NCBI GenBank assembly: GCA_037127255.1
Contig: JBANSL010000003.1
Location: 48,522,814-48,586,813, forward strand
Source: Persicaria tinctoria
Taxonomy: Eukaryota > Streptophyta > Magnoliopsida > Caryophyllales > Polygonaceae
Direction: 5' to 3'
DNA: 64,000 bases
Below the pieces are notes generated by a model. The model was not told the DNA's origin. It saw only the letters and a list, made by a program, of their open reading frames with translations, and ran no database searches. Positions 35,843 to 63,778 of this stretch are shown here, one piece after another. The position numbers and the translations under genes were made by a program. Numbering within the stretch: the first letter of the stretch is position 1; every line of letters begins with the position of its first letter.

Positions 35843-35930
35843 GAAAAAATTTGCGAAATGGGCACATTAATTGGACGAATTTGCAAAATAGACGCGGGTT
35901 TGGACAAATTTGCGAAATAGCCCCTATATA
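35843..35930 (+). repeat. left terminal inverted repeat of the MULE
   Basis: Contains three direct copies of TTTGCRAAATRG about 33 bp apart (near 35,850, 35,881 and 35,909). The right end has the same three in inverted order. Confidence 0.75.
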
Positions 35931-35934
35931 TACC
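35924..35934 (+). promoter_or_regulatory. TATA box at the edge of the left terminal repeat
   Basis: CTATATATACC, just inside the terminal repeat and about 210 bp before the ATG at 36,143, followed by a CT-rich leader. The terminal repeat probably serves as promoter for the Ulp1 gene. Confidence 0.6.
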
Positions 35935-38900
35935 TAATTTCGCGTTGTACGGACATTTTTCCTTGTTTCTCAGAAAATCGATTTCCTCTTCTTTTCCAAA
36001 TCTCTCTTTGCTCGGAGTTTTTCATCTTGCTACCCCTGGCTTTGTTTGTGGTTCGTTTTCCGACTTGGTGCTTTTCTGGCTTGATTCGCTCGATTATTCG
36101 TCCTTGCTTTGGTAAAGTTCAGAGTTTGCATCGTGTATCTCAATGTCGTCATCCAGTAGCTCAGGTATAAATTTGGTGGATTTTTGCGAAATTTGTCGTG
36201 CTAGGGTTTTGGAATATGTTCGTTTATGTTGATTTTATTGTTTGTTCAACAATCTATGGTAAATCGATGCTTTATGTGCATTCTTATGTGCGGTTATTAG
36301 TACTTTTCGTCGTTTTTGGAAGTTGCATATGTAAATTCGGGTTTTTGAACTGTTTATTTTCGTCAAATTTGCGGTGTTGCACTTTGTAAGTGCTTTTTTA
36401 GTGTTCTTCGTGTATGCGGACCTGTTTTCCATGCTTTTGATTGTTTTTTGTCGATGATACGGTACTTATCTGCTGCTATGTTCAAGTGTATGGCGCTGAC
36501 ACTGTCTGTTTTTGTGTTAGTTTGTTGTAGTTCCAACAATGTATGTGTTTGGATTTGGTATTTTATTTGTGTGTTTTGTGATGTTCATTTTATTTTAGTA
36601 TGTCTGTGTAACATTATATTGTCATTGTTTGTTGTTGTTTATGTCATCACTTATTCTGTTATTGTCTATTTTACATTTTCTTTATTTTGTTGCTTGCAGG
36701 AACTCAATCTTCTGATTCATCCACCTCTTATCTTGGTTCTGATGTAAGTTATTTTTTATTTTGATGAGCAAGTTGTAGTTTTTTCTTAATATGATGGTTG
36801 TTTTTTTTGCTTAATCGTCTGTTATTGATCAGGGGTTGGAATATTGCATTCCTGTTTCTGAGCGATTTCGCTGTGGATCCAACATATATTCACACCCTTC
36901 TGTCTACAATACTTTGCAAAAAGGTTGTGTTGGATGGGTGCTGACGCAAGGCACCAAAATGGTTATAAATTTTCAGCTTATGCATCAAATGGTGCTCCGT
37001 CAAGTACAAACAAAAAAAGAGCATGAATTGTGGTTTAGAGTTGGTGGACATCTTGCACGTTTTTCAATCGCTGAGTTTCATGTTATTACAGGCCTTCCTT
37101 GCGAAGACCGTGTTTTTAATATCCCAAAGAAAGTGTCAATATTGGAATTTTTTGGGCAGAAGAAAATGACTCATGATGAGCTACTTGATCGTTTCATATC
37201 TGAGAAAAAGATGTCTAAGAAGAAGTTGATTATGGCAAAGTTGTTGCTGATTGAGAGGCTAATTGTGTATAGGAGGTCAGAAGTTGTAAGTGCACAATTC
37301 TTATCTCTTGTGTGCAATGAGAAGGAGTTTGAACTATATCCTTGGGGTAGAGAGTCATACACCCGTTTGCTGAAGTCATTGAAGAGTTCTTCTGTTGCAG
37401 ATCGGAATGGGGTTAGGGGTTCTTATCAAATGTATGGATATTGCCTTGCATTCTAGGTATTGTGCTTTAGTTATTGCATGTCTTATGTCATCATTTTTTT
37501 GTCTGCGTCAGCACAACTTTAATGGTTATGTGAGTATTATGTAAATATTGTTTTGTGTTTTTATTCTGATACATGTGCATTGTCCAGAGCCCGTTGTTCC
37601 CTATTTATGGGGAGTTTGCACGCACTGAATTAATGGCGTTTGCTGGTGAAAAAGTTGATGCTGTAGTTGATGATGTAGTTGTTGCGTCAGTTGAAGAAAT
37701 AGTTTCTGGACCTGTTGATGCGACTTTGTATTAGAGTTGTCGTGTTCGTAGAAGGGCATATGAAGCTAAGTTTTCAAATAGGGACACCCAGTCTGAGGAG
37801 GAAGAAGCTAATGTGTTGCAGAAACATGATGAAGGCGAGACGTCAAAGAAGAAGACCCCTGTGAAGAGAGGCAAGGGTGCTAGAAAGAAACAGGACGGTA
37901 AGTCCTTTGAAACTGCGTTTGAAGTTTTCCCAGAGGGTGATAAAGAAGATGCAAGGACCTCAAAGAAGAGGAAATCTTCTGCTGGAGGGATGGGTGGTAA
38001 AAAGAAACAGAAGGTTGAGTCTAGCGATAGCTCTGAGCAACGGGTCCCCCTGAGGAGGGGTCGTTCTGCAAGTCGTGTTCTAATCAATCCATACATTGCT
38101 CTAGACCGTAAAAAATCTGTCAAGAGTGATGTAAAGATGCCTCGACAGAAGGCTTCAGCAGTGAGGACAGGTGCTAGAGTTATTCCATCTATGGAGGGTA
38201 AGAGACTTACTGCTGACACAGATTTGCACAAGGAGGTTGATGTGGTTGCTTCACCTTCTAAGCGATGTCGGTTGAGTACTGATTCATGTGACCTTTTAGA
38301 AGATGATGCCCTGTTGAATGTTGTCTTTCAGCGGAGGTCTAAGATGAAGAAGACCGGTGGTGTAAGTAGTTGTAGGCCATTATATGATAGTAATGTTGAC
38401 AAGTCTTTTATTATTCCTTCAGTTCCTGTTGTTGGTACCGCGGATGCACATGTAGTGAAGCCTGTAGATATTCATGTTGCAGTCTCTACATCTGGGTGCG
38501 AAATCAGTGTTGGTGGTGACAAAGGTGAAGATTTTACTCCTGATACCCATACTTCCAAATCCTGTGGTGAAGTTCCTGTTTGTGATGACAAGTTTGATGT
38601 TTTGCACTCTGACACCCATTCCCCTAAATCCGATAAATTGTGTGCTTCTCAAACTGCGAGGCTATATGTTTTGGCCGACCTTGCAGATGGCATTGATTGC
38701 GGTGACACCGTTGAAGAAGTGGAGACACCTTCTGCTGACAGTGATGGAGAGGGTGATGTGCCGACCCCTTCTGTTCAGAAGTCAGCCCTAGGGAGTGTTG
38801 AAGCACATGATTTTGGTGGTGGGCAGTCTGTGCTGGGGCAAACATCTGCTGCTTGTGAAAATGAATATGTTAGCATTTCAAGTGATGAAGCTGTGAAAAT

Positions 38901-39282
38901 AGCAGTGTCATCAGAGAAAGTGGAAGATATTGAAGATGTTTCTCCTCAAATGGATGCTAACGATAATCCAACTTGTGAGTTGCCTCCCAAATCGCATGAT
39001 GATGCTTTTGCTTCTTCTCTCCTATCTCATCCTGACTGGGTGAAGGAGATTTATACGAAGATTGCGAAGCTTGAAGAGATCCCAAAAATTATGCATCTGT
39101 TGTCTGCAAGGGTAGATGCAATTGAAACAAAGATTGTTAAGCTGAATGGGAGCCTTCAGGTGTTTGGTGAGATGGCGAAGAGGTACGATGAGCTTGAGGT
39201 TAGGGTTGCTAATTATGAAGCTTTGTTTGAGAGGTTCCAGTCAAACCCTGTCAAGCCTGATGTCAAGGACACTTTTGCAAAA

Positions 39283-39650
39283 GTTGATGACGAAAGTGTT
39301 AGTGGTGCTAAGTATCAGTACACACCTGTGAAGGCTTATGATAAGCACATTGCTGGTAAGACTGTGAGCTCTCCTGTGGTATTTCATGATGAAAGCACCA
39401 GTGGTGGTAAGGGCCAGGGCACACCTGCGAAGTCTGATGCTAAGCATATTGTTGGTAAGTCTGTGAGCTCTCCTACGATCGTTGATGTTGAACATGTGAG
39501 GTCTGGTAAGGCCCAGGACACACCCGTGAAGTCTGATGATAAGCATGTTCCTGGAAAGCCCGACGGCCCTCTTGTGGGAGGCGATGATGAACGTGTCAGT
39601 GGTGGCGAACCCCAGGCCACACCTGTGAAGGCTGTTGTTGAAGATGTGAA
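39283..39650 (+). repeat. fourfold peptide repeat in the Ulp1 linker
   Basis: About 99-111-bp units encode variants of VSGGKxQxTPVKSDDKHI followed by GKxVSSP. There are four decayed copies in the linker exon. Confidence 0.75.
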
Positions 39651-40068
39651 CAAAATTTTGAATGATGTTGTGTCTGATCTTCAGCAGTCTTTCCCTGATG
39701 AGGAGTTAATGTTGAAATCATCCGCCGTTTCTGGCAAAGGCGTGCCCGTGTCTTTGCCTTCATTAAGTAGCGAGGTTCTAGTAGTGGGTAAGGAGTCTCC
39801 ACCTGTTGTTGCTGACACTGATTTTAAGGTTTTTGGAGATGAGGTTGGGATTCCAGCAACTTCAGCTGTTGGGCCTCAATCTACAAACTGTGAAGGCGAA
39901 GGCGCTGGTGGTAAAGTTGCTGGAGTTACGGTTGACCCAGCCCTTGAAAAGTACATTTGTCTTTCTGACAATGATGATGACAAGGGCGCAGGTGTTGATT
40001 GGGATTCGTTTGCCAAGGATTCTGCAATTCAAATTGAAGTTGACCAACTAAAGGCTTCCAATCTTATC

Positions 40069-40260
40069 ACCAGCGCCTGAGGGTATTCCTTTCCTATTGG
40101 TTTTCATTTTCTTACTAACCCGCCTGAGGGTATTTCTTTTCTCATTGAGGAAGACACTAGGGGAAGGGCTACTCCCCGCCTCACTCGTTAGTAGCCCAAA
40201 CACTTTTGTACGTTGCCTTTCCTTAATTTGAGAGCTTGCTCTCGTTTGCTCACCAAAAAA
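40069..40260 (+). mobile_element. SINE-like retroposon with 23-bp target duplication
   Basis: A 192-bp insert flanked by identical 23-bp direct repeats (40,046-40,068 and 40,261-40,283, beginning AACTAAAGGCTTCC), ending in CACCAAAAAA. Removing it rejoins the frame (KASNLI, then PLNSTFLYGP). It has an internal partial duplication of CGCCTGAGGGTAT. No clear tRNA-type A/B boxes; it may be a 5'-truncated LINE end. Confidence 0.88.
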
Positions 40261-41610
40261 AACTAAAGGCTTCCAATCTTATCCCATTAAACAGTACATT
40301 CTTGTATGGTCCAGTTGTGGAAGTGAAGAAAGTAAGGATGCCAAAGCATGCCCCTAAGAAATCACTGATCAGCTCAGAAGATCATCAATTTATTTATGGA
40401 CTCGTAAAAAAACAAAGGTATGGTTTAATTTTATGTTTAGTATTTGGTATGAAATGTTGTTGTTATTGTATTAGTTACAGCATCTTATGCTATATATATA
40501 TTTTTTATTTTTTATTTTTTGCTTTGTGTACTCCTTGGAAGGAATTTTTCTGTTGTTGGTCCAACCTCAAGGGTTGATAGAAAGTTTTTTCGGCGTATTT
40601 TATTGAAGAATATGTGGTTTGATTGTCAGGTAATAACTGGTTATATTTCTACATTATATATTTATATATATATTTGTGGATTACTTTTTATTGTATTATT
40701 TGATTGTTGAATCCACTTTATTATTACTTTGTTTAGCATCTAGAAGCAGGTTTGATTCATATTAGGAAGCGCATTCATGAGGACCCTGTGAAGTATCGAG
40801 ATGTTCTTGTTCTTGATTGGCTATTTTATCTGAAGTACCTCCCCGACTATGTTTCTTGTTATGGGATAGACATAGATCTTGAATCCAGCACTGAGGATTA
40901 TTTTGTCGGTACGTGCCCTGCTGAGTATGGGAAGCCATGGGCATCGGTAAAGAAAATTTACACAATTTTCAATGTTATAAACAAGCACTGGGTGGCGTTG
41001 GAGATAAAAATTGAGGATAGGGTAATCAATGTGTTCGATTGCAATGTTCCTGCTGTTAGGGGAGGTGTTCTTGAAGAACAACTGCAACCATTTGCTATTT
41101 GGATTCCAATTCATTTAGCAAAGGCTGGCCTATTTGAAAACTTTGATTCCTCTCCTTTCCAGTTATATATGGTCCCTGGGTTAATGCATGATTCAACTTG
41201 GTATGTATTTGTTATCTTGTTATGTTCTTTGCTTACGTTTAGGTACTTGTTATTTATGTCCTTACATTACATTGTTTCTTTCCTTGTCTACAGGGCTTCA
41301 TGCGGTGTGTTTACATTAAAAGCGATTGAAGCTTCTGTATTTGGGGGAGATGTTACAACCTTCAACAATGAAAAGATCTTTCGTTTCAGAGAACTCATGT
41401 GTGCAGATCTGATCAAAGAAACTTGGAGTTTTAGATTTTAGAACCAGTAGTTAGATAGGGTGTTCTTTTGTAAAGGGGGGAAGTTTGGATGTAATCTGAC
41501 AACTTAATTGCTCAAGATAGATAAGAGAACATTATGTGGTGACAACAGTTGCCTAAGTACGAAAATAGTGGTGACACTGATGTTTGTTTTCAAGCAGCGT
41601 TGAGACTGTT

Positions 41611-42215
41611 GATCTTTGTGATTTTTTGCTCATTATGTTCCTATTTTTCGTTAATATAATTTTCTACTTTTTAAATATATATTTTCTTACGCTGCTGTCT
41701 TGTTTTTGGTCATCGTTTGAATTAAATTTCATACCATGGTTGATTGGTGAAAATTTGCTCAACATGATCATATTTCTGCTGAACAACGGGTTAAATTTTG
41801 CAAAACAAGTAATCTTTGTGAATTTGTGCCCAGTAACATCTTATTTTTGCTTACTAGAATTTTTGACTCTTTAAATTTATATTTATTTACGGTGCTGCCT
41901 TTTTTTTTGTCATCGTTAGAATGAAATTGCATACTATGGTCGATTAGTGCAAATTTCTCAACATGATCATATTTTTGGTGATCACTAGGTTAAGTGTTGC
42001 ACAACAATTGATCTATGTGAGTGTGTTCCCAATATGATGTTTTTTGTACTTAATATAATTTGTGAATTTTGAAATATATTTATCTCATCGTGTTGTCCTT
42101 TATTTGGCCATAACAAAAATTAAATTGCACACCATTGTCGATTTGTCGAAATTTGCTCAACATTATAATATTTTTGCTGAACAATAGGTTAAATTTTGCA
42201 CAACAACAGGATTTG
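41611..42215. repeat. about 200-bp tandem repeat, three units
   Basis: Units share GCTCAACATGATCATATTT, TTGCTGAACAA.AGGTTAA and GTCATCGTT..AATGAAATT words with starts about 200 bp apart. Fills the space between the Ulp1 and RING genes. Related words recur at 44,220-44,560, 53,680-53,740 and 58,270-59,410. Confidence 0.75.
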
Positions 42216-42319: not shown

Positions 42320-43268
42320 TTCTTCCTCGTTTCTTCAACAGTTCAACGTCACTCAAACCCTTTCCACTCCCTTCATCCTTACCCTCTCTCCAACTCTTTT
42401 GCTCGTCCTCCACAAGCTCTTCCTTTTTCCGGAGTCTTCTTTCCAAGGTGCGCCCTTTCTCATCTATTTCTCTACCTTTCGATCTCGTGTTTACTTCAAG
42501 AAAATCGGTTAGGGCTTTTTTTTGTTTTCCTCATTTTTAGATGTGTTTTATTTTGTGTTTTCGTGATTTTTAGATGAGTTTTTCATCATCTTTCAGTCTG
42601 TTAGGGTTTTTATTTTAGCATTTTATATGAGTGTATATTTATTTTTTGTTGTTTATGTTTTGTATCCTTAGATGGCACTTCCAATTGAAGTTCAAATTGG
42701 GTACCATACCACTGTTGGGTATTTTGAGGCGTCAATCACACCAAGGCCGACGCCTGTTTATGGACCTAGTATCTTGCACGTGGTTATCAATTCCGAGAGG
42801 ATCCCTGAGGTGTTCGTGGAACATATCACTGAGTGGAATGGGTTGCCAATGTCTTTTGAACAGTGTGATCAGTTGTTTCATGAAGCAGGGGTCACTGCTG
42901 TGGTTCGAACTCAAGTAGCCAACCTGATGCTAACGGATTATACTCACATGTGGTTTTCAGACGATGCTGAGTTCGTTGAATACGGGCTCTGCCCTGATCT
43001 CATTATCGATGTACGTTTCCTTGTAGAATCTGAAGATGACATGAGCTCTGATCCAAGCTCTGAATCTGAGATGAGCATAGATACTGAAGAGCATGTGGAT
43101 CCCCCAGCTTCTCTAGATGAGGTGGACCTGTGCTCTATATGCCTTGAGCCGATGCTGCCATCTACGCCGAGCCTTCGGACACTGTGTGATCATACCTTCC
43201 ACAGAGCGTGTCTTATGGAGTGGGTGTCGTATCAACCCATTTCTCCACTATGTCGATCACCCTTTTAG
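42320..43268 (+). CDS. RING-H2-type protein, copy 1 (one zinc ligand lost)
   Basis: Non-coding exon to about 42,447 (TTCCAAG, donor GTGCGC), intron to 42,671 (TATCCTTAG), then a single coding exon 42,672-43,268, 198 aa. The N-terminal two thirds is an unnamed domain (HITEWNGLPMSFEQCD, RTQVANLMLTDYTHMWF, VEYGLCPDL). An acidic linker leads to a C-terminal RING: CSICLEP, TLCDHTFHRAC, then SPLCRSPF. In the last ligand pair CPxC, the first Cys is Ser (TCT), so one zinc site is probably weakened. RING proteins are usually E3 ubiquitin ligases. A TATA-like TTATTTAAA is near 42,303. Confidence 0.8.
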
Positions 43269-44590
43269 GCATATTTGTAATGTATATTTGCTTGGAAAAG
43301 ACATTGTAGGTGCACCTATTTTGTGGTAGTTAAGCTAATGGAATGTATGGTATGAATGGAAGTCGGTATCTGGCACCTTTTTGTATATGATTTCCATTGT
43401 AATCATACCAACTGGCTTTTGTAAGTATTTGTTCTAACTGGTCTTTGGAAATGTATAATATTAATGAAACTAATGCATTGTTAAATTTGGTTTTGTATGA
43501 TACTGTGTTTTATTTGAGGAAGAGAAGCCCACCTGATCTTTGATGAATATGCTTATATATTATCGTTGGTGACAATGGCCTAGTTTTTGTCCTTGTTGAA
43601 GTGTATCTTCTGTAAAGAGGTTTTTGATGCCCAAAGTATTGTTAACATTTATTGTCTGATTAGGTTAAAGTAATGCCGACACCATACTTGCATTTTTTGA
43701 TATTGCAGTGTGTGTGGTGACACTAGGTGTTTGGTGTCCCAATTAGTGCTGACAGTGATATCAGTTACAATTAGTGATGACACTGATATTCAAGTATTGT
43801 ATTCTATGATTTTTGAAGTGTATGTATTTATATTTTTTCCATTTTATAATGTATGCGATGGGCACTATGTGTTTGAGACGCAAAGTATTGGTGTCACTCA
43901 TATTATATTACAAGTATTCATGACACTAGGTGTTTTAGACCCAAAGTAGTGCTGACACTGATACTAGTTTCAAATAGTGGTAACACTATACTTGTATATA
44001 TTTACTTCAAAGTGTATGTGGTTGCCAGAGGTGTTTAATGCACATAGTATTGCCACCAGACGTGTATTAGTTACACCTAGTGGTGATAGCAGGTTGTGTA
44101 AGATAAACTTGCTCAACAATATATTATTTTTGCACCACGTTGAGACTTGTGAAATTTTGTCCATGATAATTCAATTTTACTTGTCAATTTAATTATATAG
44201 TTCCTTACTAGATTGTTACACAACGTGGGCTTAAATAGCCGCAATTTTAGAATAAAGCTGCACAATGTGTGGGTGTGATTGGTGTAATTTTGCTCAACAT
44301 CAATTTATTTTTGCTCAACAGTAATTTATAGTTGCACAACAGTAGTTTATAGCTGAAATGTTATCATAATGATTATATTTTTTGTCAATATAATATTCAA
44401 ATTTTCCAAAAATTTTGTTTTTTGCATCATGTTATTATTTTTGCTCATCATCAGATGTAAATTTCCCAATACCGGCTATTGGGGGAAATTTGCTAACCAT
44501 TATCTTATTTTTGCTTATCAACACATTAATTTTGCACAAATGTTTAAATCATTGATATTGCCCTCAACATAACTGTTGGGCTTCGTTTAG
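43269..44590. other. MULE spacer with GTGNTGACACTNG words
   Basis: No gene. Repeated words such as GTGGTGACACTAGGTG, AGTGCTGACAGTGAT, AGTGATGACACTGAT and AGTGCTGACACTGAT occur between 43,665 and 44,095. GCTCAACAT/TATTTTTGCTCAACA words follow to 44,560. Confidence 0.6.
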
Positions 44591-44839: not shown

Positions 44840-46626
44840 TGACGGAGGGAAAGTCGTTGATTTACCTCGCCAAAAATAATTCCCAAACAAACAAACAAGT
44901 ATAGTATGCAAGTAAGGGGTCGAACCCTAGAGAATCAAGTATTTCTAAATATTGTGTATTTATCAACATAAAAGAAACGATTTTTATGAATAAAAGAAAA
45001 TAATATTGACAAAAGCAAATAAATGATAGAAGAAAAGCGTTTCCACCTACAAGTTCTCGACTTTGGTTGGTTTTATTGATCATCGAATCCTTTTCAAGTT
45101 ATTACCTTTTCCTACGAATTCCTCCCGTCTTGGTTTATATAGATTAAAAGTCCTACGAGTCCAATTAATCCCTTACGCCTCAATGCAACCTTAACACAGT
45201 CAAGATTTAACAAAGGAATAGCAAATAGTCCCAAGAACTTGAGCATATAAATAACACCAATTAAACACGGTAAATCAATGTTTAAGATATATGTCAACTC
45301 CCTACATAATCATGCTTCAAACACGGAATCCACAATCTTATGCGTGCTACTACGGAAATAACACAAATACGAAAGTATTAAATCCTAACATGAAATCGAT
45401 ATTATCAAGGTAGCTAATCAAGATAACATCAATAACATAATCAATATCACACAAAGAAGTTGAAAGAATTAAAGAGGAAAAATAACTTATATTAGAAACT
45501 CACAAACCACCAACCAAGTCTCGAAAGTGTAGGCGGAAACTACAAAATTAGCCAAACATGGCTTACCTAAACTTTCTTCTCTTCAATGGTGATTTCTCTA
45601 CTTGGAATTAATTCCTTAAAAACATAAGCCTAGAACATCCTATTTATAAGTCTAATGTCTTCCATAAATAAGGTAAAAGATAGATAAACTAGATAGAAAC
45701 TTTCTAAACAAACTAGATAGAAGATAGACTTTCCAAATTTAATTCAGCGTCAAATTCCGCTGGCAGCGAAAATTTCCGCTGGCAGCGAATGGCGTCAATC
45801 AAGCTCCTGTTGGATTTTCGCTACCACACTCGCTACCACTCTCGCTGGCAGCGAATGTCCATGCCTTAGAATATTTTCAAGCTTCTTCGATTCCGTTGTT
45901 TTCGCTTCCGCGAGTCCACCCTTCCGCTGCCGCGAGAGTCTCCATTCGCTGCCGCGAGAGCTTACATCCGCTGCAGCGAATCCGGTCGTCCGCTGGCAGC
46001 GACTCCATTCGCTGGCAGCGAGTTTCCTTTCGCTGGCAGCGAGTCATGCTGCTTCTGGACATGCTTCCGCTGACTCCAGTCGCTGGCAGCGAGATGCCAT
46101 TCGCTGGCAGCGACTCATGCTCAGGCCGGCCACCTTCTCGCACATGTTGTTGCTGACTTGATTCACTGCAGCGGAAAGGCATTCGCTGGCAGCGAAAATC
46201 CAACAAAAACACCGTCACATAGATCTTCGAAAGAGCTTTCCAACGCATGCTCATATGCGTCGATCAGACATCCGAGGCGTCCGGAAAGTGCGTTACAAGT
46301 TCAGCTCGCTGAGCGGACAGCTTTCGCGACTCGCCCTCGTTTCCGCTCTCAGACCTCGATTCCGTTCTCCGTTGCTCCTTGGGTTGTTCTATTCTCTTCG
46401 GGACTTCTTCCTTAAGCTCTCCCAAGTCTCTCCTTAGCCTTAATTAGCTCCATTCGTCGTGTTCTTTGCCTCGGATCTACGAATCTACATAAAACCATCG
46501 AAATAGCGTAGATTCCGAACTTTCCCACAAAATGAATGATAATCTAATTAACACTAAAACATGATTATATAACAATGAAATGCACCGAAACTAACCTATA
46601 ATGCCTATTGGAAACATGCCTTATCA
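44840..46626 (-). repeat. 3' LTR (minus sense) of the nested element, 1787 bp
   Basis: TG...CA ends. TATAAATAGG on the minus strand near 45,640. Upstream of it (45,755-46,195) nine exact CGCTGGCAGCG words, plus CGCTGCCGCGA and CGCTGCAGCG variants. 32 bp longer than its partner. Confidence 0.93.
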
Positions 46627-46640
46627 AACTCCCCCACACT
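46627..46640 (-). other. polypurine tract
   Basis: The minus strand reads AGTGTGGGGGAGTT directly against the LTR, as needed for second-strand priming. Confidence 0.8.
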
Positions 46641-49209: not shown

Positions 49210-49212
49210 GTA

Positions 49213-49482
49213 TTATTCTTCCACCTTTGCCATGTCACCCACACAAAGGAAAATATCCCACAATTCCGGCCAATCCAAACCATAAAAACCTTTGTTTTTC
49301 AAAGATTGGGCGAATTCTCGTATCTCGGGAAGCATGCCATCTTGAACGCAAAGTACTTGTTCTTTCAAATCATCTTGGATACCCCGTGAAGCACGGTCGT
49401 CCACTAAATCTTGCACTCTTGTGAGGTAGTGGTGAAAGTATTCTCCTTGGTATTGCCATAACTCCAACTTCATTGCAAACAA
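49213..49482 (-). CDS. gag-like fragment of the nested LTR element
   Basis: About 89 codons starting just after the primer site on the minus strand. LWQYQGEYFHHYLTRVQDLVDD resembles the helical core of retrotransposon gag (W-rich, F..Y..R..DL), and EQVLCVQDGMLPEI follows. It stops 4 bp before the next ORF begins. Too short for a complete gag. Confidence 0.5.
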   Translation of the reverse strand: MFAMKLELWQYQGEYFHHYLTRVQDLVDDRASRGIQDDLKEQVLCVQDGMLPEIREFAQSLKNKGFYGLDWPELWDIFLCVGDMAKVEE

Positions 49483-53384: not shown

Positions 53385-54052
53385 TTCTTCTATATTAATA
53401 CGTATTAACATTGGTACTTATTTATATGTTGAATGTATTTTTTATTTTTTTGTTATTTTAGTTTATATGTGTTTCATCATAATGATATGATGCAATATAT
53501 TAATATCATAGTAATCATATAATTATTTTGTAATTTCCTTCCTCATATTTCAAATTATAAATTGGGACTGAAGTTTTACGTCTATCCCTTGGTATACGGC
53601 GGACATATTTGATTAGTTTGTGGATTGTTTTGGTAAAAGTAGTGCTGACACTGTCTAACTAAGTTTTTATGTTACTCGTAATTTGCTCAACATCATCTTA
53701 GTTTTGCTAAACACTAGTTTACAATTGCACAACAAACGAATGGATATTATTAAAATCAACTGTTTGAATAACATAGACCACTTGATTATAAGCGCAGAGA
53801 ATTGTGCTGACACATTGAAGAACAAACACAACTGTTTAATAGCAGTTATAGTTGTATGCATCTTGACAAATACTATCCATCAAAAACCCACATGGACAAC
53901 AAACGTCTTAACGGGTACGAGAAACCTGACCACAGTGACAACAACTGTCTTAATTGGTATGAGAAGAATTTTCAGAAGTAGCATATAAAACTGTCTACAC
54001 CAAAATTCATTCCAAAGTTTGAAAATAAAACACGAAATTGTGTTATGGTTGT
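53385..54052. other. MULE spacer, no gene seen
   Basis: AT-rich 3' flank. It contains AGTGCTGACACTG (53,642) and a GCTCAACATCAT...TTTGCTAAACA unit (53,683-53,730). Confidence 0.5.
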
Positions 54053-57000
54053 TCACCCAAGATTCAGTCTCTGCCCCTGAATTCCTTTTGAAGTTATTCT
54101 TGCATGGGATTTTGCTGCCTTCACAACATCTGCGTTCACTTCATTTAACTCTGAACATACTATATCTGTCAGATACTTCACACCCAGCTTTGAAATATTC
54201 TTGAAACTGCCCTTTTCCAATCCACACTTGTACCCTCTCTCTGTCCCAAAGAAGGTCTCCATGTCTCGCATGAGGCATACTCCAGAATATTGAACTTTCT
54301 CCTCTCCAGCCCATGTGATGTGAAGTTTTGATGGTGTTGCATCTGACACTATTTCTGCCTTTGCTGGGAGCCCCTTCTCTGTTAGATAAGCAATCAGCAT
54401 ATCGCCCTGCATGGATTGAATTAGAATTCACGTAATTGTAATTATAAAATGAGTTGATATTTAAATGAAATTAAGAGAAGGAAAGAAATATTAGATATCA
54501 GTAGTAAAACTTACCAAACATTCAAAGGGTGGTGTGAAGGGTCTAATTGGATCACCGGAAGGTGGTGTGACATCAACAATTTGGACCATTTTGTTTTTAA
54601 AGTTGAAGACAACCATGACATAGTCTGCTGTTCGTTCAACCCCAAATACAATCTAATCAACATAATAAAAAACAAATAAACATTAGTGATTGGTCTTCTG
54701 AACTTTATTTATTTAATTGCAAGGTAGTACCATGTCTATATCCTTCAAAGAAAGGTGTGGTGACGATGACAACACAGTATCCATGTGGAGGTTAAACCTC
54801 TTGAACTGTTCATCAGAAGCTCGTACTGATACACTCGCTACATTAAACTGGTTGAAGAATAGAAATTAATAAAAAATCAGACGAATTGTAATAACGGCTA
54901 ACAATGGAGTGTAATTGAAAGTTAAAATTGTAAGAATATTACAGTTTTATTGATATTGACAAAAAGTCTTGCAGGTGATTGAGCACTTTTATACCGTTCC
55001 TTGTGGTTGAGGATAGCTGTCCATGCACCAATAACGACACTAGACAAGTGGGTTTCATCCTCAAGCGTAGCCATGTCTGTTCTAACAATTTCAACAGACT
55101 TGTGCTTAAACAAAATTTCCCTGCAATGTCAATTATTTTTAAGATGGATTATATGAAAATAACCTTTTACTTCTAACTGAACATACTTTAAGAAGGTTAA
55201 GTTTAAAATGAACTTACGTGCTGTGTGGTGTTTTCATTGCTAAATAGGCTGAAACAGTGAGCTCAATTTCAGAGATAGGATCTGTAATGTCAACAACACG
55301 GGAGTAATATGGGCTTCTCAAAGATGCAGAAGGTTTATGTGCTCTCCTTGTAGCTTCTTCTCTCTTCGGGTTATTAAGTTGATCTGCAGCATTTCCATCA
55401 ACTATGTTGATCCGCGGCGACCTTCTTGGTGGCAAGGCAGTAGGGAGAATGCATTCTATTGTATCTCCCAAAGGGTTCACTGGTGGAGTATTAGCTTTAA
55501 TTTGAGTGGGTAGGGGTTTAGGAGTAGCTTCACCACGCTGTTGTATTGGAGCCCCCCCATTGCTGTCTGGGGGAGTCTGGGCTGCTTCATTAGCATTCTT
55601 CACTTCAACCGATGTGTTCAATGACGTCCCTTCATCTTTCTTAAAAGCAGGGTCATCTAGAAATATATCAAAGGAAAATTCTCCGTCCACTTTTATATTT
55701 GATTTCATTTTTTGCTTGTTGAGATATGCCATTTCGATTTGAGTGATGCAATCTAAAAAAACAGGGTATGCCCAGAATTTCTCTTGTGATTCGGTAAAAT
55801 ATGGGCTTACAGGGTCATTCATATTTGACATGTTAGCAGCATTCGTAGCCGTAGGTGCCTCAGAAATGACATTTTCCACCCCTAAAAGCTGGTTTGCTCC
55901 ATTTAGAAGCGTTTGCACCTTGTCATCATTTTGTAGTTCAATCGGGACTTTCATAGACCACTCAGCAAAATCAGAAACAGCAGATGCAAGTGCAGAAGTC
56001 TTTTGAGCAAATAACTTTATCCAACTCTAGAAGATAACATCACATAAAAAATAAGAATAAAAAGTCATCAGTAAATACCAGAACATTGCTGTACTGTAAT
56101 AATATTACATTGAATTGGTTGAAATAATTCATACAAACCTCAACTGGGGGTGTCTCTTTCTCTGGATCAGCATGGTGACTGGTGCCTTCACCGTGCAGTA
56201 GGTTGTGGACAAGCTGTAGATTGTACGTCTTGATGGTGAGGCACAACTTGGCGAGGCTGGACTAAGCCACAACCAAAGCCTCCAGTACTTATATCATCAG
56301 TTTCTCGTTGGCGCAAGATTTTGTAATTTATGCCAACGAAAACCGGGAAAGAACGAGTCATTCTTCTTAGAGATGTGCTTGTGAATAATTTCACCCTATC
56401 CATGTAAAACAACTGGCACACCAAGGGGGTAAACATATATCAGTATAACGATTGATCAGTGAATGCTGACATAAAGAATATTGTAGACATGTAGATAAAA
56501 GTATGAGGGGTGACATTTGGACTACTGATATGGTAAAGAAACTAAGTTAACGTCAGAGCGAAGGTTTGAAAAAAATACTTACAACCAAGAATAACAGAGG
56601 CCCTCTGAAATGGCCATTCTTGTTCTTTTCCCAGCTTCTCTTTGCATCGACCAAACTTTCCAACACAATAGCACACCAATTTAGGTCTTTCAGGTCACCC
56701 AATTCAGGAACTACTCTTATTAAACTGTGGTTGGCATGCCCGTTTCCTAGTGTATCAACCAAGATAGAGTCCAGTATAACGATAAAGTTCAGAAGGAATT
56801 GATCACTGCAGTCAGTGTCAGCTATCAATTTTTCCATAACAATAGCTGTTGTTATATTGTCCTGGACATCAAATGTGGTTTTCCACTCTTGCACAAGATT
56901 GAAATTCTCTTTAGGTGATTTTCTTCCAACTAAAACTTTCCCCATTTGGAATCCCATTGTGATATGCACGTCTATTTCTGCAATTTCAAGTTCGCCTCCA

Positions 57001-57993
57001 TTAGCCAACACCAAGCAACACTTGTTAGGGTCAAACTGCTCCACTAACCAATACGAAAGAAGTAGTGGTAGGGTAACAATCTCCAAGTTGAACAAAAATC
57101 CAAAGCCAATATCCTCAATCATTTTCCTTTGCTTGGCATTCAATTTTTTCAAGGACGACACCAACAAGCGTGGGCTTGACCGTGATTTCAATGATGGGAG
57201 ATTTTTTTGTCTAGTGTTTCTCTCACTCCTCACAACCAGCTGCCTGTTTTCTTCGACAGGTTGTATTGTTGTGGTATCTGTTTGCTCATCAGATGTTATG
57301 ATATTCACAGTTGGGTTTACATGTTCAACAACCGTCTCATTAGGCGAATGTGTTTCCAGCCTTGCAATTTCAATGGTCTCCACAGCAACAGTGCTAACAC
57401 GAAGATCAATTGCAGGGTGCACTTCTCTCTTTTTGTTTTTTCTTACAAGGGGTTGCGAATCTTTGGATTCAAGTGATATACAACCCTCCCCTGCTTCCAA
57501 GGATTTTGCAGTCTCAGTATCAACAGACAGTTCATCTTTGAAGGGAGGTGGATCTCTAGATAAATCAACTACTGGAGGTTTAACCCCAGATCGTTTTGAT
57601 CTCTTCGAATTTCTATTTTGACTGTCTAGAACAGGTGAATCACTTACACTCTGCGGACGTTTACCTATAGAATGAACACTTACAATCAATTTATACAAAT
57701 ATAATTGGAAATACTGTGAAAGACTGTATGTTATGCCGAACAAATTCCCAAATTCGCAAATTCAACCTCTAGATTAATCACATTAACTTCAATTTATTAT
57801 GCCAAAGAGATTGAAATAGCAATGGTAGATCTTGTAAGGATGAATAATTGCTTGATTATAAACATTAAATTCGCTTGAACAAGTGCGATTTTTCCTAATT
57901 TTCGTGGGAAACTAAGCCCTAAACCGTACTCGTTCGAATTTGAACTTTAATACACAGAAAACACGAAATCAAACCTTTCGGATCTGAAGACAT
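54053..57993 (-). pseudogene. plant-mobile-domain-like / Ulp1-like gene, catalytically dead
   Basis: Minus-strand gene from ATG 57,993 (19-nt exon), then exon 56,583-57,664, a third from 56,412, 55,218-56,026, about 54,944-55,121, 54,728-54,850, 54,516-54,655 and 54,053-54,411. Exon 2 has the mobile-domain-like stretch KMIEDIGFGFLFNLEI, LSYWLVEQFDP, DLKDLNWCAIVLESL. Later exons match the Ulp1 family C-terminus, including NFKNKMVQIVDV, LMRDMETFF and YKCGLEKG. Where Ulp1 has H before YYLVVF, this copy has D (TADYVMVVF). Where DCGV carries the nucleophile, it has YSGV (Cys to Ser). A TGA near 56,189 in exon 3 implies a frameshift or different splicing. Expected product: a pseudoprotease, if any. 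Confidence 0.7.
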
Positions 57994-58270
57994 CTTTATG
58001 TATATGATAGATCTCCTTCTTACAAGCCTATAATCAAGCCTCAGGCAATCTCGCAGAGAAATGGACAGAGTAGATTTAGCTTGAGGAAGAAACTAAAACA
58101 AGGTGATGGAAAGCTTCTCGAACCTGAAAAGGGTTTTGCGCATTCACACTTAGTTGGGTTTTATATTTTTTTTAGGAAAACCGTTTCCATTTTCTTTTTT
58201 TTTGTTTGCTAATAATTCTGCAATTTTGTGAGACTTTATTTATTTGTTATTATTTTTTATATAATTCCAT
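57994..58270. other. 5' flank of the pseudoprotease gene
   Basis: Leader and AT-rich promoter region of the minus-strand gene. No distinct box chosen. Confidence 0.35.
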
Positions 58271-59410
58271 ACCCTAGTTCTGCTCAACATCATATTATTC
58301 TTGCTCAACAATAGTTTAGAATTGCACATCGCTTGATCCTTGTGAACTCGCTCAATATCACCTTATTTTTGCCCAACGATAGTATATGTATTGCACAAGA
58401 ACACCACTTTGGTACCAACAACTTCTTATTTTTATATATTAATGCTTTCATATTTGCTTAATAGTTTACTGCTCAACATTGTATTATTCTTGTTCATCAA
58501 TGGAATAAAAGTGCACAACATATTATGCCTGGGGAAAACTTGCTCAACATCAATTTATTTTTGCTCAACGATTGTACATATATTGCACAACAACACTTTG
58601 TTTGCAACGACATCTTATTTTTGTTTATTTACGATTTCATAGTTGTTTAATACATTATTGCTCAACATTGTCTTATTTTTGCTCATCAATGGAATAAACC
58701 TGCACAACATATTATGCCTGGGGAAAACTTGCTCAACATCAATTTATTTTTGCTCAACGATAGTACATATATTGCACAACAACACTTTGTTTGCAACGAC
58801 ATCTTATTTTTGTTTATTTACGATTTAATAGTTGTTTAATACATTATTGCTCAACATCTTCTTATTTTTGCTCATCAATGGAATAAAACTGCACAACATA
58901 TTATGCATGGGGAAATCTTGCTTGCCATAACTTTATTTTTGCTCAACCATAGTATATATATTGCACAACAACACTTTGTTTGCAACGGTATTTAATTTCT
59001 ATCTATTTACGCTTTGATAGTTGTTTAATAGATTATTGCTCGACATTGTCTTATTTTTGCTCATCAATGGAATAAAAGTGCACAACAACACTTTGTTTGC
59101 AATGGCATCTAATTTTGTTTTCAAAGTTTCTTTTTAAATTATTGCTCAACATGCTCTTATTTCTGCTCATGAATAGATTAAAACTGCATAACAAAGTACA
59201 AAGGGGGAAATCTTGCTCAACATCATTGTATTTTCGCACAACGTTAGTACATATATTGCACAACAACACTTTGTTTGGAACGAAATGTTAGTTTTATCTA
59301 ATTATGGCTTCATAGTTGCTTAAGAGTTTGTTGCTCAACATGATCTTATTTTTGCTCATCAATAGAATTTATTTGCACAACATATTATAAATTGGGAAAA
59401 CTTGCTTAGC
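58271..59410. repeat. 189-bp tandem array
   Basis: GCTCAACATTGTCTTATTTT-type starts at 58,471, 58,660, 58,849 and 59,038 (exact 189-bp steps), then 59,144 (a unit shortened to 106 bp) and 59,333. Each unit holds GCACAACATATTATGCCTGG, TTTGCTCAACGAT and GCACAACAACACTTTG. ORFs here are repeat translations. Confidence 0.93.
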
Positions 59411-59412
59411 AT

Positions 59413-59582
59413 GGTAAAATACTGATGACAGAATTTGTGCTGACAGACTTATCTTGAATTAGTGAATAAATGTTAATAAGCAAAAACAAATATCATTTAC
59501 AAATTTATAAACTGTATTATCCACTAACATTACTCTTATACAATACTGATGACAGAATTTGTGCTGACAGCCTTATCTTGAA
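59413..59582. repeat. direct repeat at the transposase 3' end
   Basis: A word of about 40 bp containing CTGATGACAGAATTTGTGCTG and CTTATCTTGAAT occurs at 59,413-59,459 and 59,541-59,583; the second copy overlaps the transposase stop. A related word is in intron 2 at 60,686. Confidence 0.85.
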
Positions 59583-62019
59583 TGCTTCATCCTCCTCTTG
59601 TACTCTCCCAAAGAAAGCTTTCTATTCGTAGTTGGTCTTCCTGCTCTTTTTCTTACTACTGGTGGATAACATTTGATGGATTTGATCACATCAGGGATGT
59701 TTCCTTCATCTTCATCCAACACTGGATATATTGTTTCTGCATATGTCATACGCCAAGCGTCATTGCTGTAAAATTTTGCAACAAAATCAGACACATTTGC
59801 TTTTATGTGTGTTATTGCTGCTAGAGCATGTACACAAGGCATTTTCTCGACATCAAATACTCTGCACGTACATGTTCTTGCTGATAAATCAACTATAGCT
59901 ACAGCTCCTTGACCATTGATCTCAATTTGTGATTCATTCATCTTCTCTACTCTGCATCCCCCAACATGCGCTTGTGATTCTCTTATCAACTTAAGGATCT
60001 CTGGAGTTAGTCTGTCTTGATTTGCCAGTGCTTTTTCTCTCCTGTCCAGGAACCATGATGTGAGCTTTTCCCTAGCAAACTCCACAAGTGCCACAATGGG
60101 ATAATTCTTTTTGCCCCTGAAAACAGAGTTCAAACTCTCAGCATTGTTGGATGTCATCATGTTGTATCTATCACACCTTGAATGTGCTCTTGCCCATTTA
60201 TCAAACCCTGCTGACACCAGATATTCTAATAGCTTTGGACAGGTTGCTTCGATTTGTGCAAGGTGGTTGTTGAACTCTTGGATAGTGTAACTCTCTGCTG
60301 CTTTTTTGAACATTTTCCCCAGCTCTTTTTTCTTGAACGTTCCTTTGATGTTTTGTTTCAGGTGCCACATACATATGTAATGTGTAGCTGCTGGATAAGC
60401 TAATGATACAGCCCTTGAAATGCTAGCATGTCTATCAGAGACAAACACTAAGTCATTTGAAGGAGGCACAACCTGCAGCAGCTGATACATAAACCATTCC
60501 CAAGAGCTGTTGTTTTCAGAGTCAACAATACCAAAAGCAAGTGGAAAGAGTTGTCTATTTGCATCTTGTGCAACTGCTCCAAGCAACGTCCCTCTATATT
60601 TGCCAGTTAGGAATGTTCCATCAACAACAACCACCTGATATATAAACAAATAAAATTACTTATGTTATCAAAATTAAGGAAATCGATGACAACAGAATTT
60701 GTGTTGACACTGTTTAAGACATACCTTCTTTAAGAGTGGGAATGCTCTGATGCACTGTCCAAATGACAGAAAGAAGTACAGAAATCTATCTTCTTTGTCT
60801 TTTGAAATTAAAGTTATAGTCCCATTGTTTCTCTCCCTGAGCATATGGCAAAATGATGGCAAATCTGCATAATTTGATTCTGGTGTCCCATTAACCATTT
60901 CATGAGCTATTTTTGATGACTTCCATGCTCTCCAATAGCTAATTTGCATCTTTTGTTCTGTTCTCATTTTATCCTTTATCTGTGCTGGTTTGTATCCAAC
61001 ATCAACACTGTGTAATTATAGTCAAATTAGAATAAATCATATATTAGAAAGCAAGTTAAAATATAAATACTATCTCTTGAAAAAAGTGCTCACCTTGATT
61101 CGATGATACTTGCAATCACAGAAGATGAAGGCTGTTTGCAGTGTTTTATCCTGAAATCCCATGTGCATGTGTGCATTTCCACATACACTATGACCTCATG
61201 CCAAGTTGGGCCAAAAGTTTTGACATGCACTTTCCATTTGCAGTCAGGATCTCCACAATGCACTCTATAATACTTTTTATCTGCTTTTACAACGCGAAAA
61301 CCAAATATCTCAGTTATTGACAACATCTCTAAAGCATGCTTAACTGCTTTCCTTGATGCAAAGCTTTTGCCTACGCAAATCAACTTTTGTGAATTGAGAT
61401 TCACACTAGACACAGTAGAGCTATCAGCATCCCAATCTTCTAGTGTAGTCTCTCTTCTGTGTGCTGTAGAATAGAATGCTCTCCATATTTCATCTGCAGA
61501 ATCTTCATCACTTGCAGTGTCACTGTTTATAGAATTCATGTCATCTCCAACATCTTCCAACAATACACCTTTCATCCTGGTGTCACCAATCAATGTCATG
61601 TTATTTTCCTCTGTAACGTTATCTGTAATAGCTGGATTGCATGCAACCAACTGTAAACTCTCAGCTGAGGATGGCTGTTGATCCTCAATGTCTGCACTAT
61701 TTGATTTAATGCTGACACACAACTCCACAGCATATTTAACATTCTCTAGGTCAGACAACTTTAAAAACTCTTTCAAATCAGCATCACATTCCACAAGAAG
61801 CGGAGCTCTCAACAGCTTGAAAGGGTGTAAATGATTGAATTTCAATTCCAATGCACTATCTATATTGAATCTGGTGTGAACTTTTTCAGTTAAATCCTGC
61901 AATGTTATTGTCTCGTCAATCATAAACACCTTTGAAGTAGTGTCTCCAACAAAGGCTGGACATGAATCATTAACCAACCATTTCCCACCACACACAACTG
62001 TAATAATGTGGGTTGCCAT
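59573..62019 (-). CDS. MULE transposase (MURA type), apparently full length
   Basis: Three coding exons on the minus strand, 61,094-62,019, 60,725-61,007 and 59,573-60,634, give 756 codons with no stop or shift; introns have GTGAGC, GTATGT and CAG sites. The N-terminal region (residues 1-100) resembles a PB1/ubiquitin-like fold common in plant MURA proteins. A MuDR DNA-binding domain follows (GKSFASRKAVKHALEM, FRVVKADKKYYRVHCGDPDCKWKV). The DDE core has Asp 408 (VVDGTFL), Asp 470 (VFVSDRH) and Glu 569 (NNAESLN). The C-terminal SWIM zinc finger is CTCRVFDVEKMPCVH (residues 657-671). It should bind the terminal repeats and cut the element out. The gene reads inward from the right end. Confidence 0.92.
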
Positions 62020-62025
62020 TGCAAT

Positions 62026-63520
62026 CTGCAGATTACGAATTGAAGAGGATAAGTAAATTTAAGTAATAGATTTACACATCTTGTGCAGTTTTTTTATGAC
62101 TGAATTGTAGTGCTGACATTGCTCAATCAATGTTCAATAACGATGACACGACCAACCAAAGTGATTAGAATTAACCTGTTATGAAAAATTTGCGCCAAAG
62201 GCGCAAATTTTGATGCTACTGAATGTATAAACATAGATTTCCATACTGTTATAACATATATAAGCATAAAATATTCTATACTGAATGTATAAACATAGAT
62301 TTGCGCCAAAGGCGCAAATCTGCAAGTGATATACCCTGTGCAATTTTCTTATGACTCCATTGCAGTGATGACATGGATTAATCAACATTGAAAATGGAAG
62401 TCTAGTGATGACATTAGCAATGAACAACAAAATGACATGAACAACAAAATGAATACAACAGACCTGTTGCGAAGTGAATTATATAAATGTTGCACTTTTT
62501 GGGGGAAACTTCTGTGGTTAAGGTATACTGATTATTTGAAACAATCATATTTAAATCACATCCTAAGCAATCATAGAGATGACTTCAGCAATGTAAAATA
62601 TGAATAAGCATAAATAACCATAAACATACACAGATTCGATTTGAAACTTTAATATTACATTTATAAAGAAAAAAATGCTCATAAACATTAATCCATGTTT
62701 AAAAAATTTATCAAAATTTGCGCCAAAGGCGCAAATTTTGATGCTACTGAATGTACACGCATAGATTTCCATACTGTTATAACATATATAAGCATAAAAT
62801 ATTCGACACTGATATTCCCTGTGCAATTTTATTATGACTCCATTACAGTGATGACATGGCTTAATCTACATTGAATAAGGAAGTCTAGTGATGACATTAG
62901 CAATCAATGTCTAATAAGAAATCAATACTTCAATATAGAGTGCAGATTCAACTGTAATGATGACATGAACAACAAAATGGATACAATACACTTCTTGTGA
63001 TGAACTTCTATGATTAAGGTCTACTGATTATGTTCAAACAATCTGTGTAAACATACACAGATTAAACTTGAAACTTGAATATTACACTTATACAGGAACA
63101 AATGTTCATAAATTTGCGCCAAAGGCGCAAATTTTGGCGTAATCAACACTTGTAATCACACGATTCCAATTCGTAATCACAAAACCGAACCAGTAATTTG
63201 CGCCTTCGGCGCAAATTGAAGCAATAATCACACAACTGAAGCTGTAATTGCAAAACTGAAGCATACCTAAACACAGAATGAATCTGTAATCACGAAACTC
63301 AATTAGTAATTTCAAACCAAAAAATTCTAGGAAATTTGCGCCTTCGGCGCAAATTTAAGCAGAAAACGCAAAACCGAAGCACAAATAAACATAGACTGAA
63401 GGAGCAATCTCAACACTAAAGAAGTAATCCAAAAATTATCGTAAAATTTGCGCCTTTTGCTCAAATTTGCGTCCTTGACGCAAACTCTAATCGACTTTAA
63501 AATCTAGTAAATTGACTTAC
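62026..63520 (-). promoter_or_regulatory. 5'UTR intron of the transposase gene
   Basis: The minus strand shows a donor AATCAG|GTAAGT at 63,521/63,520 after a CT-rich leader, and an acceptor ATCTGCAG just before ATTGCAATGG (ATG 62,019). The 1.5-kb intron contains all the GCGCC palindromes listed below and a duplicated segment (62,185-62,420 and 62,712-62,905). Confidence 0.65.
62185..63484. repeat. family of GCGCC palindromes in the leader intron
   Basis: Perfect palindromes with AATTTGCGCC arms around a 3-nt centre at 62,185-62,211 (12-bp arms), 62,297-62,321 (11), 62,712-62,740 (13), 63,110-63,134 (11), 63,195-63,217 (10) and 63,332-63,356 (11). Decayed ones follow at 63,444-63,484. The centre is AAA in the first four and TTC in the last two. 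The arm TTTGCGC resembles the TTTGCGAAAT motif of the terminal repeats. Confidence 0.95.
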
Positions 63521-63692
63521 CTGATTCTCTAGATTACACGCCAAAATCGAAAGCTTCGTTGATGTCGGAATGGTAATCTCTCGCAAATCCTACCAATTTC
63601 CAGCGATCAGGTCGGGAGAGAGTAACAGAGCGTCCGCAAACGGAGAGACGGAGGAGATAGAAAATCGTTTGTGGGAGAGAGGGTGAAGCCTT
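63521..63692 (-). promoter_or_regulatory. leader exon and promoter of the transposase gene
   Basis: CT-rich leader on the minus strand. A TATA-like AATAAAAGG near 63,694 sits at the inner edge of the terminal repeat. Confidence 0.45.
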
Positions 63693-63778
63693 TTATTGCG
63701 GCTATTTTGCAAAAATGTCCTAATATGCGTCTATTTTGCAAAATTCGCCCAATTTCGTGGCTATTTTGCAAACCCCCC
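63693..63778 (-). repeat. right terminal inverted repeat of the MULE
   Basis: Three GGCTATTTTGCAAA-type words spaced like those of the left end, followed by the TATTTATAT duplication at 63,779-63,787. Confidence 0.75.

Follow-up and report, generated by a model that had tools for sequence, protein, structure and literature searches.

A family of large Mutator-like elements in Persicaria tinctoria that carries a DUF1985–C48 gene and two RING-H2 genes

Organization of the element

The window analyzed here, a 64,000-nucleotide stretch of Persicaria tinctoria DNA, holds at positions 35843–63778 one copy of a Mutator-like element (MULE) family, in which inverted ends enclose a transposase gene (MURA), a gene joining DUF1985 to an Ulp1/C48 domain (gene A), two RING-H2 genes (RING1 and RING2) and two further genes, S and D. 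The features are as follows, with the strand given where one applies.

35834..35842: left copy of the 9-bp target-site duplication (TATTTATTT), one base different from the right copy
35843..35928, + strand: left terminal inverted repeat, with TTTGC(G/A)AAAT repeats inside (end alignment, genome copies)
36143..41441, + strand: gene A, with DUF1985, a long repeat-rich middle and Ulp1/C48; 8 exons in relatives, broken in the window copy
about 40069..40260: SINE-like insert within gene A, with a 21-bp flanking duplication
41612..42206: noncoding tandem array, unit about 199 bp, with TTGC(T/A)CAACA motifs
42672..43268, + strand: RING1, single-exon RING-H2 gene, 198 aa (Pfam, alignment)
44109..44341: noncoding motif cluster, sites 21 bp apart in one direction
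44840..51292: nested LTR retroelement, foreign to the MULE (TTTTC duplication; LTR pair K2P 0.017)
51574..52209, + strand: RING2, RING-H2 gene with a single exon (211 aa), interrupted in the window copy by an in-frame stop at codon 30
52918..53178, + strand: gene S, exon 1 (whole protein 130 aa)
53253..53384, + strand: gene S, exon 2
53642..53804: motif cluster in the noncoding DNA that separates the 3' ends of S and D
54053..57993, − strand: gene D, 8 exons, 987 aa in copy c3, with no recognized domain; frameshift in the window copy
58211..59412: tandem array of a 189-bp unit, where TTGC(T/A)CAACA motifs are densest
59573..62019, − strand: MURA transposase, 3 exons, 756 aa, intact
62187..63454: subterminal palindromes AATTTGCGCC..GGCGCAAATT, 11 half sites
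63694..63778, − strand: right terminal inverted repeat (end alignment, genome copies)
63779..63787: right copy of the target-site duplication (TATTTATAT)

The features by which MULEs are recognized are all present: a mudrA-type transposase, terminal inverted repeats and a target duplication of 9 bp, within the 8–11 bp range. The ends are degenerate and about 80 bp long, aligning over 79 nt with 73% complementarity at a score of 72, as compared to a maximum of 31 among 140 other pieces of the window, and the same inverted-end match is found in copies c4–c7 (those whose first pieces include both ends). The flanking duplication TATTTATTT/TATTTATAT is identical at 8 of 9 positions, and MURA reads without interruption through MULE, DBD_Tnp_Mut and SWIM domains, as in the c7 protein (MULE E 7e-26, with DBD_Tnp_Mut, Transposase_mut and SWIM). 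A preliminary description of the locus had proposed inverted ends, a near-perfect 9-bp duplication, an undamaged 756-codon MURA and, between the ends, two RING-H2 genes and a 130-aa gene (here resolved into two exons), and each of these is borne out. Its claim of a giant MULE holds insofar as the locus is a single MULE of large size whose transposase looks intact; the 28 kb span, however, is enlarged by the LTR retroelement and the SINE-like insert, both of which are missing in the six other copies compared, and the element proper measures 21.5 kb. Genes A, D and RING2 are broken in the window copy.

Within a single gene model, gene A combines DUF1985 (Pfam E 3e-25) with C48 (E 1e-13 for the window copy and 2e-18 for c6). 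Text matching locates the stretches NKHW, VFDC and SCGVF, which we take to be the catalytic His, Asp and Cys stretches of C48, together in 6 of 7 copies, the SCGVF stretch being the one not found in c5; a glutamine at the usual oxyanion position ahead of the cysteine is missing, which counts against the anti-silencing reading given below. The best match of the C48 region among PDB sequences reached only E 0.24, and the DUF1985 exon had no match among plasmid sequences. DUF1985 has been reported in VANC anti-silencing proteins and C48 in KIU/Kaonashi genes (in passages of PMC5735166 and PMC13317346, respectively), and by analogy the gene A product plausibly belongs among the proteins that release transposons from silencing by the host. 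The preliminary description counted a second Ulp1-related gene, which would be gene D, but by Pfam only gene A qualifies: gene D gave neither a C48 match nor any other meaningful match up to E 10, in a search whose HMMER filters discard many weak matches, and we have dropped this assignment.

The zinc-finger domain (zf-RING_2) has E values of 2e-10 and 3e-13 in the window RING genes, 8e-13 in RING1 of c4 and 1e-14 in RING2 of c2, and both products are predicted RING-H2 E3 ligases. The window RING1 lacks a zinc-ligand position present in four other copies. The structure predicted for RING1 is of low confidence (mean pLDDT 37.5). The RING proteins also contain a hydrophobic stretch followed by an acidic/serine run, resembling a SUMO-interaction motif.

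A gene set shared across the family

A search with both terminal repeats, as the preliminary description had suggested, shows that other copies have the same ends with the same genes between them. The left 301 bases have at least 40 scored genome copies at 95–100% identity, and the right end likewise has at least 40. Among the matches listed, 30 of 40 left ends have an in-register right end, and in 15 of these 30 pairs (distance class 20.5–23.5 kb) the ends lie 21.4–22.9 kb apart. Target duplications read in the window copy, c2–c7 and nine more copies agree at 8 or more of 9 positions in all 16 and exactly in 11, one of the exact cases lying three bases further on than expected; three of the 8/9 cases, which consist mostly of T runs, are weak.

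The gene order common to the copies is A, RING1, RING2, S, D, MURA, and exon-wise alignment finds all six genes at least partly in 7 of 7 copies. Of 40 left ends, 33 are followed by a RING2 in matching direction and none by one in the opposite direction (compared against the 150 RING2 matches listed), while 87 of the 115 MURA exon-3 places among the matches listed have a convergent RING2 within 35 kb and none has one on the wrong strand; a control in which positions were shifted by 1–2 Mb gave 0–3 such linkages vs. the 87 observed. The order is also kept in the diverged subfamily copy d1 (dS 0.12–0.37 by gene), which carries stops in A (5) and RING1 (3). Shared ends, gene set and linkage across copies rule out unrelated elements nested side by side, and the presence of copies at many places in many contigs rules out an assembly artefact. 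The proposal that an Ulp1-type gene and two RING genes accompany the transposase thus describes a conserved set and not chance cargo. In none of the seven copies read are all six genes intact, which leaves present-day autonomy doubtful.

Coding constraint and noncoding motif arrays

For d1, dN/dS is 0.40 in A, 0.61 in RING1 (from a protein-guided alignment; a plain DNA alignment gave 0.65), 0.35 in RING2, 0.11 in S, 0.54 in D (from a single pair) and 0.29 in MURA. For gene S, both exons stand next to RING2 in 18 of 19 further diverged loci, and its dN/dS is 0.10–0.34 in 18 of the 19 diverged loci with an estimate and 0.53 in the remaining one; its shared changes number 17 nonsynonymous to 30 silent vs. 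74:30 for singletons (p = 7e-5). RING2 gives 0.25–0.39 in the distant loci L039–L047 and spreads over 0.20–0.71 across 20 loci, which were chosen from stop-free matches and are biased toward intact genes, with shared changes of 46:32 vs. 100:36 for singletons (p = 0.03). Between subfamilies, RING1 has a dN/dS of 0.48–0.92 and a protein identity of 65–83%, meaning fast change. By hand count, 101 of 150 RING2 and 63 of 115 MURA matches are stop-free among those listed, these being the best-scoring places and favoring intact ones. Changes arising after insertion are neutral (singletons N:S:stop 437:152:25). By these measures coding constraint is strong in gene S, clear in RING2 and weak in RING1, and at least S and RING2 look maintained by selection. 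A recent one-off acquisition of the RING genes is rejected by the dN/dS of RING2 and S together with the order kept in d1.

The motif TTGCTCAACA occurs 14 times in the element, every time in noncoding DNA and on one strand, and is absent from the remaining 42.5 kb of the window; in d1 it is likewise 14 of 14. TTGC(T/A)CAACA keeps one direction regardless of gene direction. The 21-bp spacing is seen among sites allowing up to one mismatch, exact pairs at this distance numbering only one or two per copy. The related word GTGATGACA breaks the motif rule, with 8 occurrences in the element on both strands and 4 elsewhere in the window. As a sequence pattern, the layout of TTGC(T/A)CAACA appears to match the type of target used by VANC anti-silencing proteins.

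Relation to known elements and possible function

The family resembles the KIU (Kaonashi) and VANDAL MULEs of Arabidopsis in its 9-bp duplication, its short degenerate ends and its DUF1985 gene (here with C48) lying opposite in orientation to mudrA, an arrangement also described for the ULP of KI-MULEs in passages of PMC2528002. The peptide repeats in the variable part of gene A recall VANC genes, and the short motifs in noncoding tandem repeats recall VANDAL targets, as far as both are described in the relevant passages of PMC5735166, whereas the motif itself is TTGC(T/A)CAACA here and YAGTATTAY for VANC21. The proposed KIU/VANDAL-type assignment is based on the DUF1985 plus C48 gene and the noncoding motif. 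The present elements differ in their size of about 22 kb with six genes, as compared to three in the KI-MULEs covered by passages of PMC13317346, and in having two RING-H2 genes and the small gene S.

The ULP1-bearing MULE of melon is known as CUMULE. In the ULP1-bearing MULEs of melon, rice and grapevine (Mutavine families) an Ulp1-like region likewise lies downstream of the transposase, and the passages of PMC2528002 on these elements mention no RING genes. A ring-type zinc finger (C3HC4) is found in MULE 37_Pi of Phytophthora, an oomycete element for which the portion of PMC6446971 concerned tabulates the ring finger in place of SWIM, in contrast to the separate RING-H2 genes beside a SWIM-type MURA described here. 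Like Pack-MULEs, the family has genes between its ends that may derive from a host, but Pack-MULEs carry gene fragments and are without a transposase of their own, while the present family has a full MURA gene, linked to RING2 at 87 of the 115 listed places, and conserved coding genes.

The elements, about 22 kb in size, probably form a MULE family of autonomous type that belongs with the KIU/VANDAL-like anti-silencing elements and has acquired the two RING-H2 genes, S and D as stable parts. MURA would move the element, gene A may bind the arrays and relieve silencing, like VANC proteins in Arabidopsis, and the RING proteins might ubiquitinate host silencing factors or SUMO-marked proteins at element chromatin, such that the SUMO-protease-like domain and the ubiquitin ligases would act together, with S and D as possible accessory factors. 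The earlier suggestion that the cargo modifies host silencing is plausible to this extent, because gene A joins DUF1985 with C48 and noncoding arrays of the VANC-target type exist. A more specific version, in which gene A docks directionally on the 21-bp-phased arrays and removes SUMO, the RINGs are SUMO-targeted ubiquitin ligases clearing silencing proteins, and S and D complete the complex, seems unlikely as a whole.

MULEs often capture genes, and RING1, RING2, S and D could be passengers, host genes captured once and carried unused in the manner of Pack-MULEs. The frequency of such capture, the neutral decay of copies after insertion and the weak constraint on RING1 agree with this, but the low dN/dS of S in 18 of 19 loci with its silent excess among shared differences, that of RING2 at large distance, the stop-free fractions of RING2 and MURA (among listed matches that favor intact ones) and the order maintained in diverged d1 all argue against it, and we regard it as very unlikely. 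Somewhat less doubtful, yet still a minority reading, is that the targets of the RING proteins are encoded by the element itself (MURA or gene A, for example, might be kept in check), which would mean self-regulation and not counter-silencing. DNA transposons are known to need control over transposase dose, and RING2 travels with MURA; nothing in the data points to any substrate, however, and the fast change of RING1 fits a host-facing target at least equally. It is improbable, too, that the arrays serve transposase binding or a structural role and have no relation to gene A, with C48 as a relic. Tandem duplication alone can multiply a word (as in the arrays at 41.6–42.2 and 58.2–59.4 kb), and the subterminal palindromes near MURA are other site families in the same element, but the motif also lies in separate clusters at 44.1–44.3 and 53.7 kb, is missing from coding DNA, is fixed in direction and persists in d1, and the His, Asp and Cys stretches all occur in six of seven copies.

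The role of the Ulp1 domain in VANDAL-type anti-silencing factors is described as unknown in the passages of PMC13317346 that treat it. Under the favored reading of an anti-silencing MULE family, the long retention of a DUF1985–C48 gene alongside the pair of RING-H2 genes directs attention to the SUMO/ubiquitin pathway as the target, and the family offers both a testable motif and testable proteins. The family is also an example of a plant MULE that retains six genes with measurable constraint, which goes beyond simple gene capture.

Ends and copies of the element

The Mutator-like element (MULE) lies in a window located at C3:48522814-48586813 of a 1.68-Gb assembly of 221 contigs, of plant origin to judge by its gene families and introns, and we compare it here with six other close genome copies (c2-c7) and one diverged copy of the same family (d1). 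Its features are as follows, with genes A, S and D named by us.

35843-35928: left inverted repeat, imperfect, with internal TTTGC(G/A)AAAT repeats
36143 to 41441 (exons), + strand: gene A, DUF1985, a long repeat-rich middle and Ulp1/C48
about 40069-40260: SINE-like insert, 21-bp duplication
44840-51292: LTR retroelement nested in the MULE, TTTTC duplication
+ strand: RING1 and RING2, single-exon RING-H2 proteins
+ strand: gene S, two exons, 130 aa
− strand: gene D, eight exons, 987 aa in c3
− strand: MURA (transposase), three exons, 756 aa, with MULE, DBD_Tnp_Mut and SWIM
63694-63778: right inverted repeat, imperfect, with the same internal repeats

The preliminary description had placed the ends correctly: the terminal repeats (79 nt, 73% complementary) align as inverted ends with a score of 72, vs. 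no more than 31 for any of 140 other segments of the window, and the flanks, TATTTATTT and TATTTATAT, agree at 8/9 positions. The nine-base duplication is exact in 11 of the 16 copies for which we read it (the window copy, c2-c7 and nine more) and 8/9 in the other 5, three of which are mostly T runs. The copy labeled C11 is counted as exact on a nine-base match read by eye three bases beyond the scripted position, where the agreement is 6/9, and the matches of c2 and c3 were also read by eye. Joining the two flanks of c6 by eye, we note that its insertion appears to be placed in a palindromic, MITE-like repeat.

The search with both terminal repeats proposed in the preliminary description did find further copies. 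For each end, the terminal 301 bases recur in the genome at least 40 times: 40 matches were scored among 1303 first-look candidates for the left one (95-100% identity) and 40 among 1060 for the right one (94-100%). Among the matches listed, at least 30 of the 40 left ends have a right-end partner in matching orientation no more than 50 kb away, at spans of 12.2 to 36.5 kb (20.5-23.5 kb in 15/30). Copies c2-c7, each obtained as three 10-kb pieces (for c2 and c3 the right end lay beyond these and was read from later sequence), are colinear with the window copy along the whole element. The nested retroelement, whose LTR pair differs by 29 substitutions in 1758 aligned bases (K2P 0.017), and the SINE-like insert are missing from all six; with nested inserts excluded the window element is about 21.5 kb, and c6 (22.2 kb) and c7 (21.4 kb) are both without a large insert.

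Among the 150 best-scoring RING2 places, 50 of the 54 copies at 94% identity or more are on contigs C1-C9, vs. 44 of 96 more diverged ones (Fisher p 3e-9). Contig sizes run from 100 Mb (C1) down to 72 Mb (C10) and restart at 86 Mb (C11); the two patterns may reflect two subgenomes, with a burst in one. Elsewhere in the window, a LINE-like remnant on the − strand lies just left of the MULE (32815-34480; RVT_1 E 2e-9, with a weak endonuclease match below cutoff), and 2071-3058 is a strong tandem array whose copies reach 98.5% similarity.

A conserved gene set

The undamaged 756-codon MURA of the preliminary description indeed reads through in the window copy; the MURA protein has its three domains and a sub-threshold PB1 match. 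The two RING-H2 genes (53% identical over the aligned part) and the 130-aa gene were likewise recovered. Of the two Ulp1-related genes proposed, only A stands (DUF1985 E 3e-25 in the window copy; Ulp1/C48 E 2e-18 in c6), since a profile search with D, run to E 10, matched no protein family in a meaningful way. The C48 part of A carries HW, FD and CG stretches, the last of which a text match did not find in c5; gene S was assigned to no protein family. Three genes of the window copy read through (MURA, S and RING1, the last short of one zinc ligand) and the other three, A, D and RING2, are broken; none of the seven close copies (window, c2-c7) has all six genes intact.

The genes recur together across the genome. 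Because the match lists hold the best-scoring places, the following linkage counts are lower bounds and the stop-free shares are biased upwards. A RING2 protein query gave 150 scored places at 100 to 86% identity (best 150 of 1710 candidates; 101 stop-free by hand count), and at least 33 of 40 left ends are followed by a RING2 of matching direction (24/33 at 9.1-10.2 kb), whereas none of the 150 lies reversed within 30 kb of a left end. MURA exon 3 gave 115 scored places (best 115 of 8113 candidates; 63 stop-free by hand count), of which at least 87 have a convergent RING2 within 35 kb (62 at 7.5-9.6 kb) and none a wrong-strand one among the matches listed, vs. 0, 3 and 1 places in coordinate-shift controls. 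The 35 kb of d1 read, which is without its ends, shows the same arrangement: A, RING1, RING2, S and D are followed by a partial MURA, each in its usual orientation. Large inserts interrupt or separate some of the genes, and both A and RING1 contain stops.

Constraint on the genes

Singleton changes among the seven close copies are neutral (437 nonsynonymous, 152 synonymous, 25 stops), vs. 40, 25 and 0 for shared changes (p 0.04). The dN/dS values that follow are pushed towards 1 by the neutral tips they include. Relative to d1, dN/dS is 0.40 for A, 0.29 for MURA (partial exon 3) and 0.54 for D. The values for RING1, RING2 and S are 0.61, 0.35 and 0.11 relative to d1; 0.20 to 0.71 for RING2 of 20 diverged genes, hand-chosen among stop-free rows, relative to c2 (0.25 to 0.39 for the distant loci L039-L047); 0.11-0.34 for S in 17/18 loci relative to c6 (0.53 in one; d1 0.10); and 0.48-0.92 for RING1, d1 included. 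The S loci adjoin 19 of the 20 diverged RING2 genes; 18 hold both exons (a stop in 2, an exon indel in 2) and the remaining one part of exon 1 only. RING1 was found in 7 of 8 loci, 3 of them stop-free. Nonsynonymous to synonymous ratios are 46:32 for shared RING2 changes vs. 100:36 for singletons (p 0.03), and 17:30 vs. 74:30 for S (p 7e-5).

Motif arrays and a possible anti-silencing system

The motif counts that follow are inflated by tandem duplication. The element has 14 copies of TTGCTCAACA (0.1 expected), always noncoding and on the + strand, and the remaining 42.5 kb of the window has none. All nine TTGCACAACA sites in the window are noncoding, on the + strand and within the element, and all seven GTGCTGACA sites obey the same noncoding and strand rule; the related word GTGATGACA breaks it, since its 8 copies in the element are split between the strands and the rest of the window has 4 more. 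The strand rule is kept in c2-c7, barring one GTGCTGACA in c7, and in d1 TTGCTCAACA (14) and TTGCACAACA (11) each run in a single direction with none outside element-derived DNA, GTGCTGACA directions being 5 to 1. With one mismatch allowed, the window copy has 51 sites on + and 6 on −, and among short spacings 21 bp is the most frequent; exact pairs at 21 bp number one or two per copy, and 42-43 bp is commoner. AATTTGCGCC palindromes are confined to the right subterminal part of the element, and upstream of MURA (62187-63454) AATTTGCGCC and GGCGCAAATT form five palindromic pairs, possibly sites for the transposase or a regulator.

At the level of sequence, the transposon, its gene set, the constraint and the motif arrays are established. 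VANC anti-silencing proteins of Arabidopsis VANDAL elements are described in PMC5735166 as having DUF1985 and peptide repeats and binding motifs in noncoding tandem repeats; KIU (Kaonashi) denotes VANC genes with Ulp1, to which the review PMC13317346, citing Sasaki 2022, attributes an action on related elements. Gene A would be a VANC/KIU-like anti-silencing factor. The RING proteins may target silencing factors of the host, proteins marked with SUMO or products of the element itself. By a loose pattern of our own making, each RING is preceded by a hydrophobic stretch and then acidic residues, which we take to resemble a SUMO-interaction motif.

That MULEs bearing Ulp1 exist, as the preliminary description had held, is confirmed by the literature (PMC2528002; PMC13317346), and a C3HC4 ring finger is tabulated for one Phytophthora MULE in PMC6446971. 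In the mainly open-access literature searched, the titles, abstract openings and text passages covered yielded no description of separate RING genes as plant MULE parts. Within that literature, the family is a variant of the known Ulp1-bearing kind of MULE.
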